Positions 23,308-27,240 of a stretch of DNA of 64,000 bases are shown piece by piece. The stretch spans positions 62,001 to 126,000 of the forward strand of contig JAERTJ010000037.1 in assembly GCA_016844945.1 (NCBI GenBank). The letters are read 5' to 3'. Both the position numbers and the translations under genes were made by a program. The notes under the pieces were generated by a model. It was not told where the DNA came from and searched no databases. It saw nothing but the letters and a program-made list of their open reading frames with translations. This DNA is from Fidelibacterota bacterium (GTDB taxonomy: Bacteria > Fidelibacterota > UBA8477 > JABMPR01). The stretch's first letter is position 1, and each line of letters opens with the position of its first letter.

Positions 23308-23877
23308 TTACAAATTCATATCTACAGGAAATGCCCATATGGAGGGTAGGTTCCTGAATTTCTGATCAAGATCCAATCCATATCCTACCAGGAATCGATC
23401 TGCGACTTCAAATCCTACATATTCAGCTTCAAATTTGAGCTTGAGACAGTCAGGTTTTAGGAGCAGAGATGCAAAGGTAACTGAATTGGGTTGATTCTCG
23501 AGAATGCGATGTTTCAAAAACCGGGCAGTCAGACCACTGTCAATAATATCTTCCACGATGATGACATCTCGATCAGTAATAATACAACTGATATCTTTGA
23601 TAAGTCGAACCGTTCCAGATGATTGAGTGCCTGAGTGATAGGAGGAAACTTTGATGAAGTCGATCTCACAGTCTATCTCGAGGCGTTTTGCCAGATCAGC
23701 CAGAAAAAATACGGATCCATTTAAGACTCCTATCAGAATTGGTACTTTGCCTGCATAATCCTTAGATATCTGCTTTGCCAGTTCATCAATTCTTTTTTCA
23801 AGGACATCTTTGGAATAGATTTCTTCTAGAACCTGTCCGGTATACTTACCCATATTTTCTACTACACGTGTCTTCAT
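23308..23877 (-). CDS. hpt: Hypoxanthine phosphoribosyltransferase
   Basis: A 189-residue type I phosphoribosyltransferase that salvages hypoxanthine or guanine with PRPP. The PRPP-binding loop is [14 protein letters not shown] (about 104-117) and the early segment [18 protein letters not shown] matches bacterial Hpt. The ATG at 23877 overlaps the tilS stop by 4 nt. An internal ATG eight codons on is possible. The order tilS-hpt-ftsH is a widespread bacterial arrangement. Confidence 0.95.
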
Positions 23878-25253
23878 TCAAACGTTCCCTTTTGAAATTG
23901 AACTTTTATACAGTGCTTCACTTCTTCCAACACGATTGGCTGATTAACCATAGCCGAGGATGCTGTTCGTAGTCCAGGTATCCAGACGATCTTACCTTTA
24001 TATTCCAGTACTGGAAAGAATGGTTTCAGATGTGGTGATAATCTCGCTGACTGTAAAACATGCCTCACAGAAACTGATCGCTGAGAATCATCCACAGTGA
24101 TTTTATCTCCAGGTCTGTTCATTCTAAGGGTGTATTCACTTGTTGGGGCTACATACCAAAAGTAGTGACCATCTTCGATGTGATTTCTCAAGGTAGCAGA
24201 TTCATACCCAATTTTAAAAAAGGGGAAAACTTCTGTTTGACCTGAGTTCAGCAGTTGTTCTTCCCACTGGAAATCAGAATCTGTAAAGAAAGAGATGTGG
24301 TCTCTATCCCTAACAGCAACAATGCTCCCAGGCAACTGAGTTTCTTTGCCGATGGCATCCTCTTGAAGTAACAATTGAAGGGATTGGAAATGACTACTTG
24401 ATAATCCTTGTGGCTTATTGGAAATTAATTGAAAAGCTCTGTCAAAAATCGCCTTTTGAATCGGCGAAAAATAGTCGGCAAGCCTCCTCATTCCTAATGC
24501 TATTTTTGGTGCGCTATAGGCGTTAAATTCTTTTATTACAGTAGTTTCCGAACATCTTTCAATCATTGCATTTAAGGAATGTCCCTGACTGATGATGGAC
24601 TCAAATAAAAGCTCAATCGACTCATCTGAAGGTTTCATGAGTTTTGGAATGATATTCCTGCGAATATTATTCCTCAAATAGGCTGTATCAGTGTTAGATT
24701 GGTCTTCTCGATATTCCAGCCCTTCTTTCTTGGCAAAGGTCACAATCTCTTGTCTAGAAACGTTCAAGAGGGGTCTGATGATACCATCAACTTCACTACT
24801 GATCCCCATCAATCCGCGTATACCAGATCCTACATAAAGATTAATTAGAATAGTTTCGACTTGATCATCATTATGCTGTCCGGTGGCTACCAGGTCACAA
24901 TTGTGTCTGATCTTCAGCTCTAAGAACTTTTCTTTCCGAAGTCTGCTACCTGCTTCTTCGATACTCAACCTGTGTTGCTGCGCAAAAGCCTGAACATTCT
25001 GACGGACGATATGGACTATTAAATTTAGCTTGTCCCCCAGAGCTTCAACAAAGCGTCTATCCCTATCGCTCTCTGAGCCTCGGAGCTGATGATCAAAATG
25101 GACTATTTCAAGATGGAGTTCTGGTATATTATTCAACAGATGTAGCAACACTGTCGAGTCAACTCCCCCCGAACAAGCGACAAGAAGTTTAAGATTGGGG
25201 CTAAACCAATGTGTTTTCTTTAAGGACTGATAAAATGCGGTGTGGTTCAGCAT
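23874..25253 (-). CDS. tilS: tRNA(Ile)-lysidine synthase
   Basis: A 459-residue enzyme that converts C34 of the minor tRNA-Ile to lysidine so that it reads AUA. The N-type ATP pyrophosphatase P-loop SGGVDS is at 28-33, followed by family segments HFDHQLRGSESDRD and GQHNDDQVETILINL. The C-terminal third resembles the substrate-binding domains of long-form TilS. The gene precedes hpt with a 4-nt overlap and follows a hairpin that separates it from the GAPDH-like gene. Confidence 0.95.
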   Translation of the reverse strand: MLNHTAFYQSLKKTHWFSPNLKLLVACSGGVDSTVLLHLLNNIPELHLEIVHFDHQLRGSESDRDRRFVEALGDKLNLIVHIVRQNVQAFAQQHRLSIEEAGSRLRKEKFLELKIRHNCDLVATGQHNDDQVETILINLYVGSGIRGLMGISSEVDGIIRPLLNVSRQEIVTFAKKEGLEYREDQSNTDTAYLRNNIRRNIIPKLMKPSDESIELLFESIISQGHSLNAMIERCSETTVIKEFNAYSAPKIALGMRRLADYFSPIQKAIFDRAFQLISNKPQGLSSSHFQSLQLLLQEDAIGKETQLPGSIVAVRDRDHISFFTDSDFQWEEQLLNSGQTEVFPFFKIGYESATLRNHIEDGHYFWYVAPTSEYTLRMNRPGDKITVDDSQRSVSVRHVLQSARLSPHLKPFFPVLEYKGKIVWIPGLRTASSAMVNQPIVLEEVKHCIKVQFQKGTFE

Positions 25254-25317: not shown

Positions 25318-26391
25318 TTAGACCTCATCAAAGAACCAATCAGATAAGGATTGAATTTTCTGTTCATAAGAATTGGGATACATAAACCATGTTGCAGCTG
25401 AAATGGAACTCAGGAGTGAATTGCCATCCTGTGGTGTAAAACAGAATCCGACCAGCTCTGTCCCACCATTGATCAGGTGTAAACTAGGGGCAGATACAAC
25501 GGTTTGGTTCAGAATTCTGCCATAATGCCCATGATCTCTTCCAAAGGAAAAGACCTGACTTGAAAGTTTTTTCTCCGTGATTGCAACCAGCGGGTTCTTC
25601 TCGAAGATATCAATCACCTCGTGCATCTGCATGGGTTCTTTCATCTTGAGATTGAAGTGCACAATATGCATATACTGTGTGTTCAACTTCATAGCAGAAG
25701 AGAAAATGTTAACATCATGTCCCAGTGTTCTGAACAGGTTTGCTGCGTCTTTTGCGTGATGGGTCCCATATCTTTCTGAGCTATGAGCACCAACTTCTGG
25801 TGCTGGAATGAAATCATTTGCCTGACTCAAGTCATTTGCCCTTCGGACCATGACGAAGCGTCCATCCACAAGGTTACTGGGGTCCCCATTGTGCATACCA
25901 ATGGTTTTGACGAGAGATGACAGATTATGGGTATTGCATGAAACAACCTGGAGAAACCTATCTTCACCATGTATCAAGGACTCATCATTGATACCTCTGG
26001 CATATGGTTTACCAAAACCTGTTTCACTTCCCTGGGCAATGAATCCAAGCGTGTTATGATCATAGTTATGGTAATACTTAACCTTGTTTTTATGTCCCAC
26101 ACCTTTAGGAGTACAATCGATGACAACAGCAGCGCGATCGATAGCTTCAACAGTTGAAAAGGCAGGTTTAAAACCGATATCCTCAAAGCCTTCAAAAGCT
26201 TCCTGATCTGTGACCAGTCTGGCACCACGTTTGAGAAGGCGCATGACCTTAGCATGCTCGCTCTTCAGGGGCGTCCTTTTGTGAAAAGTGATTTCGTCAA
26301 TACCTAGACTCGCTTTATAGTCAGCAAGCAAGCCGGTGAGAGGTTCACCGATCGTACCTGTACCGACTACGTGCACAATTTTTTTAGACAT
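25318..26391 (-). CDS. Type II (archaeal-type) glyceraldehyde-3-phosphate dehydrogenase family protein
   Basis: A 357-residue protein with an N-terminal Rossmann motif GTGTIG (10-15) and the active-site segment VVSCNTHN, where Cys152 matches the catalytic cysteine of archaeal GAPDH (SCNTTG). Other shared segments are FVMVRRAND (about 179-187), THHAKD with the His pair at 211-212, and MHIVHFNL. Archaeal enzymes use NAD(P) to convert glyceraldehyde 3-phosphate to 1,3-bisphosphoglycerate. Bacterial members are uncommon, and the change of TTG to THN after the cysteine could alter the substrate. It starts 12 nt after ccmD. Family call from remembered motifs; no alignment was run. Confidence 0.75.
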   Translation of the reverse strand: MSKKIVHVVGTGTIGEPLTGLLADYKASLGIDEITFHKRTPLKSEHAKVMRLLKRGARLVTDQEAFEGFEDIGFKPAFSTVEAIDRAAVVIDCTPKGVGHKNKVKYYHNYDHNTLGFIAQGSETGFGKPYARGINDESLIHGEDRFLQVVSCNTHNLSSLVKTIGMHNGDPSNLVDGRFVMVRRANDLSQANDFIPAPEVGAHSSERYGTHHAKDAANLFRTLGHDVNIFSSAMKLNTQYMHIVHFNLKMKEPMQMHEVIDIFEKNPLVAITEKKLSSQVFSFGRDHGHYGRILNQTVVSAPSLHLINGGTELVGFCFTPQDGNSLLSSISAATWFMYPNSYEQKIQSLSDWFFDEV

Positions 26392-26403: not shown

Positions 26404-26547
26404 TTACTTTTTAGAATCAATCAGTTCTTTTAAAAGTGTCATTTCCTGATCAAGATGATCTGCTTTTTTATTCATGTACCACATAAATCCAAATATTCCG
26501 AGCCAGATAAATCCATAGGCCAGAACCAGATAAACAAAGGCATCCAT
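26404..26547 (-). CDS. ccmD: CcmD-like small membrane protein
   Basis: A 47-residue protein with a single helix (residues 3-24, rich in aromatic residues) and a charged C-terminal tail starting MNKKADHLDQE, the size and layout of CcmD, which in E. coli helps release holo-CcmE from CcmABC. The ATG at 26547 follows the ccmC stop with no gap (TAA then ATG). Sequence similarity among CcmD proteins is low, so position carries most of the assignment. Confidence 0.7.
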   Translation of the reverse strand: MDAFVYLVLAYGFIWLGIFGFMWYMNKKADHLDQEMTLLKELIDSKK

Positions 26548-27240
26548 TTATAAGATCTCCATTTCTTTGAATTGCTTATTTAAGGTGTCTTCCAGGGTTA
26601 ATAGTTGATATCGTTTCCTAATCAGATAAACATACAGCAAAGTGAACGTAGCCAGCGAAAACATGAATGCGAAAAACATGGGTGCTGCCAGGCTCCCTTC
26701 GCTACTGGCCATCACGGCTTTGGGGTGCTGAGTTTCCCACCAGCGAATCGAATAGTACACAATGGGTACATCAATAAAGCCGATAATTCCTACAACTGCT
26801 GAAAGGTTGGCACGTTTACTTCCATCAGGCAAATAGCGGCGTAACATGAGGAATGCCACATAGATGAGCCACAGAATGAGGGACGATGTTAAGCGGACAT
26901 CCCAGGTCCACCAGATTCCCCATACAGGTTTAGCCCAAATAGGACCTGTAATGAGCACTAGGGATATGAACAACACACCTATCTCAGCTGATGCAACAGA
27001 GATAAGCTCATATTTTCTATTTCGGGTCGCCAGATATCCAACACTGGCAACAAATACGACAAAAAATGCCAGAAATCCTAACCAGGCACTAGGCACATGA
27101 AAATAAAATATCCGTTGCGCGATCTGTTCTGCTGGATTGGAAGCTTTAATGGGTGGAACCCATTGAAATATCAAGAAGATACATACAAGAAACGCAATCA
27201 GGAGTGAAACCAGAAGCGCTTTATCTATTTTTGATCTCAT
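26548..27240 (-). CDS. ccmC: Heme exporter / heme-handling protein CcmC
   Basis: A 230-residue six-helix membrane protein of the heme handling protein family. The tryptophan-rich WWD-type segment WGIWWTWDVRLTSSLILW lies at about 117-134, flanked by conserved histidines (FHVPSAW near 48 and further on). CcmC binds heme at the periplasmic face and loads it covalently onto CcmE. It stands between ccmB (41 nt upstream) and ccmD. Confidence 0.95.
   Translation of the reverse strand: MRSKIDKALLVSLLIAFLVCIFLIFQWVPPIKASNPAEQIAQRIFYFHVPSAWLGFLAFFVVFVASVGYLATRNRKYELISVASAEIGVLFISLVLITGPIWAKPVWGIWWTWDVRLTSSLILWLIYVAFLMLRRYLPDGSKRANLSAVVGIIGFIDVPIVYYSIRWWETQHPKAVMASSEGSLAAPMFFAFMFSLATFTLLYVYLIRKRYQLLTLEDTLNKQFKEMEIL

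Follow-up and report, generated by a model that had tools for sequence, protein, structure and literature searches.

A bacterial gene family distantly related to archaeal glyceraldehyde-3-phosphate dehydrogenase, with a probable role in gluconeogenesis

Among central enzymes, glyceraldehyde-3-phosphate dehydrogenase (GAPDH) is a textbook example of a deep split between an archaeal and a bacterial form. What is to be made, then, of a gene resembling the archaeal (type II) form that lies directly behind cytochrome c maturation (ccm) genes in a bacterium of the phylum Candidatus Neomarinimicrobiota (Marinimicrobia/SAR406, a placement taken from the name that public relatives bear)? The window is the whole stretch of 64,000 nucleotides that was analysed. 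A preliminary description, made from the letters alone, took the gene for an archaeal-type GAPDH and proposed that it may be expressed with the heme pathway rather than with glycolysis. The gene and its immediate neighbours are as follows.

25318..26391, minus strand: type II-like GAPDH gene, 357 amino acids, ATG start, putative catalytic residues C152, R183/R184, H211 and H242
26404..26547, minus strand: ccmD, the upstream neighbour, 47 amino acids, read from the sequence and the list of open reading frames
26548..27240, minus strand: ccmC, the first full-length ccm gene upstream, with a match to NCBIfam CcmC that is below the cut-off (E 5e-43)
23874..25253, minus strand: tilS, the downstream neighbour across a gap of 64 nt, matching TIGR02432 and by synteny a conserved partner in Marinimicrobia

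The spacer between the end of ccmD (26404) and the ATG (26391) is exactly 12 nt, as had been described, and the two genes are co-directional. The motifs listed in the preliminary description are all present in the 357-residue open reading frame: GTGTIG (residues 10–15), VVSCNT within VVSCNTHN (149–156), VRRAND (182–187) and the HH pair within THH (210–212). Protein identity is 85–92% in 18 congeneric genomes and 47–74% across the rest of the phylum where the gene is found; thus the open reading frame is conserved far beyond chance. A scan of the gene region for promoters and terminators gave no minus-strand sites, and counts were near chance.

At the level of family libraries, the protein stays below the cut-off of every GAPDH model scored. 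Pfam gives only a sub-threshold GAPDH C-terminal domain (21.1 bits, threshold 24.4). The NCBIfam type II models score 94.2 bits against a cut-off of 185 (NF003251) and 78.1 bits against a cut-off of 232.9 (TIGR01546), and four further family members, with 77–110 bits to NF003251, are likewise below 185. The type I model TIGR01534 scores 10.8 bits, the cut-off being 367.2. More sensitive comparisons point to type II. With the family profile, hhalign aligns most of the chain to type II (E 3e-29) and gives type I a probability of 10%. Four archaeal type II GAPDHs (1cf2, 2czc, 1b7g and 2yyy) are the sole convincing matches in a sequence search of the PDB. An AlphaFold model built from the family alignment has a pLDDT of 90, and the top six PDB matches found with it by Foldseek are type II GAPDHs (TM 0.77–0.80, E 1e-21 to 3e-20, ∼22% identity), followed by type I; by these matches the predicted model has the type II fold. 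Sequence, profile and predicted fold thus all rank type II GAPDHs first, and the concern that another dehydrogenase family might align better was not borne out. Together, they support placement of the protein in the GAPDH superfamily, with its nearest relatives predicted among the type II (archaeal) enzymes.

Residues C152, R183, R184 and H242 correspond to Cys140, Arg167, Arg168 and His219 of the Methanothermus GAPDH 1cf2, in which the Cys acts as nucleophile, the two Arg form a pair and the His is catalytic. The 1cf2 structure paper is reportedly that of Charron et al. in 2000, an entry in the reference list of PMC12965863. These residues are identical in 36 of 36 family members, so a loss of the catalytic residues, which would have told against the preliminary description, is not seen. 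Compared with type II phosphorylating GAPDH (NF003251, TIGR01546; the four PDB entries above), the protein shares the fold, as predicted here, the positions of the catalytic Cys, Arg-Arg and His, and VSCNT. It differs in its low identity (∼22%), its bacterial host, its sub-cut-off scores, a THN in place of TTG or TTS and a C-terminal motif of its own, GRDHG...TPQDGN, that is specific to the family. SCNTT is invariant at the nucleophile in the type II set, whereas nearly all family members have SCNTHN, with H155 and N156 each present in 35 of 36. As for "archaeal-type", then, superfamily, nearest relatives and catalytic residues stand, but the protein falls below the curated type II cut-offs and does not nest among archaeal sequences (see below). 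Judged by these comparisons, the gene is a distant bacterial cousin of archaeal GAPDH and not a type II GAPDH proper.

Type II GAPDH in bacteria is as such already known, and bacterial genes already annotated as type II are found on plasmids of Proteobacteria and Bacteroidota. Three true bacterial type II GAPDHs scored 426–454 bits to NF003251, whereas five members of the present family scored 77–110. In a phylogenetic tree, a long branch (4.84, 98/100 support) separates the family from a single group made up of the archaeal and the plasmid-borne bacterial type II sequences, and the family is not placed inside the archaeal sequences. The tree, for which a comparison with archaeal GAPDH had been suggested, is to be read with its archaeal sampling of four partial sequences, a type I outgroup too distant to root it (branch 7.95) and a recovery of the family as one clade in 46% of bootstraps. 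That a type II GAPDH was acquired recently from archaea by horizontal transfer, as the archaeal origin of the nearest solved relatives might suggest, is very improbable given the ∼22% identity, the scores below type II cut-offs and the grouping of archaeal with true bacterial type II enzymes. The family is, on these scores and this tree, something other than bacterial type II GAPDH: a separate bacterial family that is neither type I nor type II proper. No description of it was found in the open-access literature, which together with the family libraries is the basis for considering it new.

The plasmid-borne type II GAPDHs (Agrobacterium, Methylocystis, Pontibacter, Acidovorax, Croceicoccus and Methylophaga) have the superfamily and the catalytic residues in common with the present protein. 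Unlike the family, they group with archaeal type II, and some are located among metal-resistance rather than gluconeogenesis genes. The true type II gene of the Agrobacterium plasmid (L179) is in a metal-resistance island, where its neighbours are cueR and genes for a heavy-metal P-type ATPase and for a CusA-type pump; that of the Methylocystis plasmid (L178) is also in such an island, near a P-type ATPase. It is plausible that these enzymes serve as metal-tolerant spare GAPDHs. On the Acidovorax (L243) and Croceicoccus (L245) plasmids, the gene directly follows an AarF/UbiB-family gene and is near a hydroxyacid dehydrogenase; also close are ppsA in Croceicoccus and, in Acidovorax, a gene annotated as xylulose 5-phosphate 3-epimerase.

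Among 245 Marinimicrobia genomes, 185 carry the family; in the class that includes G248, a metagenome-assembled genome (MAG) named Acidimicrobiia, 56 of 148 do, two of the 56 being weak matches. Acidobacteria have it too, as do one MAG labelled Planctomycetota and one labelled Deltaproteobacteria, labels that can err. In the MAG labelled Planctomycetota (L072, 6075–6929), an archaeal-type isopentenyl phosphate kinase gene follows a few nucleotides after the gene, and type I GAPDH was not found in this genome.

The gene order in Marinimicrobia is dxs - mcm - (ccmE, ccmF, ccmABC) - gene - tilS - (hpt) - ftsH - folP. The 12-nt spacing to ccmD, the shared direction and the ccm neighbours in many Marinimicrobia might suggest a part for the gene in cytochrome c maturation or in the handling of heme. 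However, the ccm block is missing at nine of 29 loci with this order (L049, L050, L056, L059, L062, L063, L065, L067 and L091), where the gene is still found between mcm and tilS; the link to ccm is thus positional. In addition, other phyla have the gene with no ccm nearby and beside gluconeogenesis genes. The association with ccm looks like mere neighbourhood, and a role in heme handling is the least probable of the readings considered here. The proposed functional tie to the heme pathway is thereby contradicted.

The neighbours in other lineages differ. Four Acidimicrobiia loci (L074, L080, L083 and L086) have the order malate synthase - isocitrate lyase - glpX (class II FBPase) - gene, and in three others (L081, L085 and L263) malate synthase and isocitrate lyase are followed by the gene, with isocitrate lyase directly before it. 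In a divergent group of Acidimicrobiia with genomes of ∼1 Mb (43–45% identity), three of four loci (L257, L258 and L260) have the gene divergently oriented from one that is PPDK-like, and in L258 isocitrate lyase and malate synthase come after the gene. Differing arrangements that repeatedly place the gene beside gluconeogenic genes are strong functional evidence.

A second line of evidence comes from genomes without type I GAPDH. In the Marinimicrobia genus g8, marine relatives whose genomes do not exceed ∼1 Mb, 22 of 24 genomes carry the gene, eight of the gene-bearing ones being at least 92% complete, and none of the 24 has type I GAPDH. Most genomes are MAGs and absences rest on MAGs, though this one is consistent over all 24. 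All five contigs of one g8 genome, G045 (0.97 Mb, 96% complete), were read. In it, pgk adjoins tpiA and glpX is directly next to class I FBA, and enolase, gpmA, PEPCK (pckA), transketolase and a PPDK-like gene are present as well; with E. coli queries, no type I GAPDH (gapA), pykF, pfkA or pgi was detected. Only if the present gene supplies the GAPDH step does G045 have a complete route from PEP to fructose 6-phosphate, a pathway logic in favour of phosphorylating GAPDH activity, and by gene content the gene is the only GAPDH candidate in G045 and in g8. All 17 type I-negative genomes that were checked have PGK, and by tallies the gene is in 13 of 14 high-quality type I-negative genomes of the phylum. 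Raw counts of type I presence against the gene across the phylum, which are confounded by phylogeny and by gaps in MAGs, are not significant (Fisher p 0.07).

GapN was considered as another means of filling the GAPDH gap in G045 and rejected. The genome has two ALDH genes, one for L-glutamate gamma-semialdehyde dehydrogenase and the other below every listed cut-off, GapN included; neither reaches the GapN cut-off, and GapN is unidirectional (PMC12965863).

We consider it quite probable that the gene encodes a phosphorylating GAPDH, of a bacterial lineage apart from type I and type II proper, that is dedicated to gluconeogenesis. Using NAD(P)H, the enzyme would reduce the PGK product 1,3-bisphosphoglycerate and so yield glyceraldehyde 3-phosphate. 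Cys152 would be the thioacyl nucleophile and His242 the general base, and Arg183 and Arg184 probably bind phosphate. The data are homology, predicted fold, conserved catalytic residues, gene linkage and the replacement pattern, from which we infer activity, direction and cofactor. In the organism of the window the enzyme would probably act alongside a canonical type I GAPDH, and in g8 it would be the only one. In this role it would resemble Bacillus subtilis GapB and cyanobacterial Gap2, each a dedicated anabolic GAPDH beside a glycolytic one. Those gluconeogenic GAPDHs are type I proteins, whereas the present protein has only the 10.8 bits to the type I model.

Two other roles have to be weighed, and the fact that most hosts of the gene also keep a type I gap would suit both. 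The first is that of a phospho-aldehyde dehydrogenase akin to GAPDH but acting mainly on a different substrate, e.g. an erythrose-4-phosphate dehydrogenase for vitamin B6 synthesis. The preliminary description had read THN for TTG as a hint of a changed substrate. The change is real and nearly invariant in the family, and in Marinimicrobia dxs and mcm are upstream in the same neighbourhood; together with the family-specific C-terminal motif, THN makes a shift in substrate possible. Such a shift need not be invoked, however, as the gene is the only candidate for the GAPDH step in genomes lacking type I. G045, which keeps the gene, has no pdxA or pdxJ by E. coli proteins, so that no DXP-dependent B6 route is seen there, and in Acidimicrobiia its partners belong to the glyoxylate shunt or encode FBPase. 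This role is unlikely. Somewhat less likely again is that the enzyme is oxidative and NAD-dependent and merely adds a redundant further GAPDH to type I in glycolysis: GAPDH reactions are reversible, but linkage is to gluconeogenic and not glycolytic genes, and G045, with this gene as its sole GAPDH candidate, has no match to pyruvate kinase or PFK. Going by its genomic setting, the gene most probably serves central metabolism in the direction of sugar synthesis in several mostly uncultured bacterial groups. If so, a further bacterial form of GAPDH tied to gluconeogenesis would exist in abundant uncultured marine groups, which would change the annotation of their carbon flow, and genomes seemingly without GAPDH would be complete for gluconeogenesis.

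The genome of the window (G000) does have the normal type I gap that the preliminary description had proposed to look for (145723–146694, C86), and with it a tandem second type I copy (146742–147701, L156) that has Ala for the catalytic Cys149. Cys149 is lost, replaced by Ser, Asn or Ala, in 23 of 24 sampled second tandem gap copies of Marinimicrobia, Acidimicrobiia and Acidobacteria (loci L156, L206–L217 and L264–L274). Two lone extra type I copies (L214 and L215) also have the Cys replaced. The Cys-less copy may serve as a partner subunit without catalytic function; the open-access literature yielded no paper on such a tandem gap copy. The type II-like gene is present in 112 of 130 genomes with at least two type I matches vs. 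13 of 43 with one, a link that may have shared ancestry as its cause. A broader proposal, to which we give an even chance, is that the family is a third kind of phosphorylating GAPDH, bacteria-specific and gluconeogenic, that has fully replaced type I in a genome-reduced ocean genus. Elsewhere it would be accompanied by a type I pair whose Cys-less member may regulate the first, with glycolysis and gluconeogenesis split between deeply diverged GAPDHs.

THN and the C-terminal motif leave room for altered cofactor or phosphate handling in the putative enzyme. An NADP preference, considered on the basis of K38 after the second strand, was rejected: K38 is aligned with Lys33 of 1cf2 pairwise but not in the multiple alignment, and is Pro in three members. 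No claim for NAD vs. NADP is made, because this diagnostic position aligns unreliably. A divergent Marinimicrobia subgroup (G030, G035 and G039 of family f9; L236–L238), with 47–50% identity, has T154A, H211Y and K38P at otherwise fixed residues; it still keeps the Cys, Arg-Arg and His, and from these replacements possibly has a different specificity.
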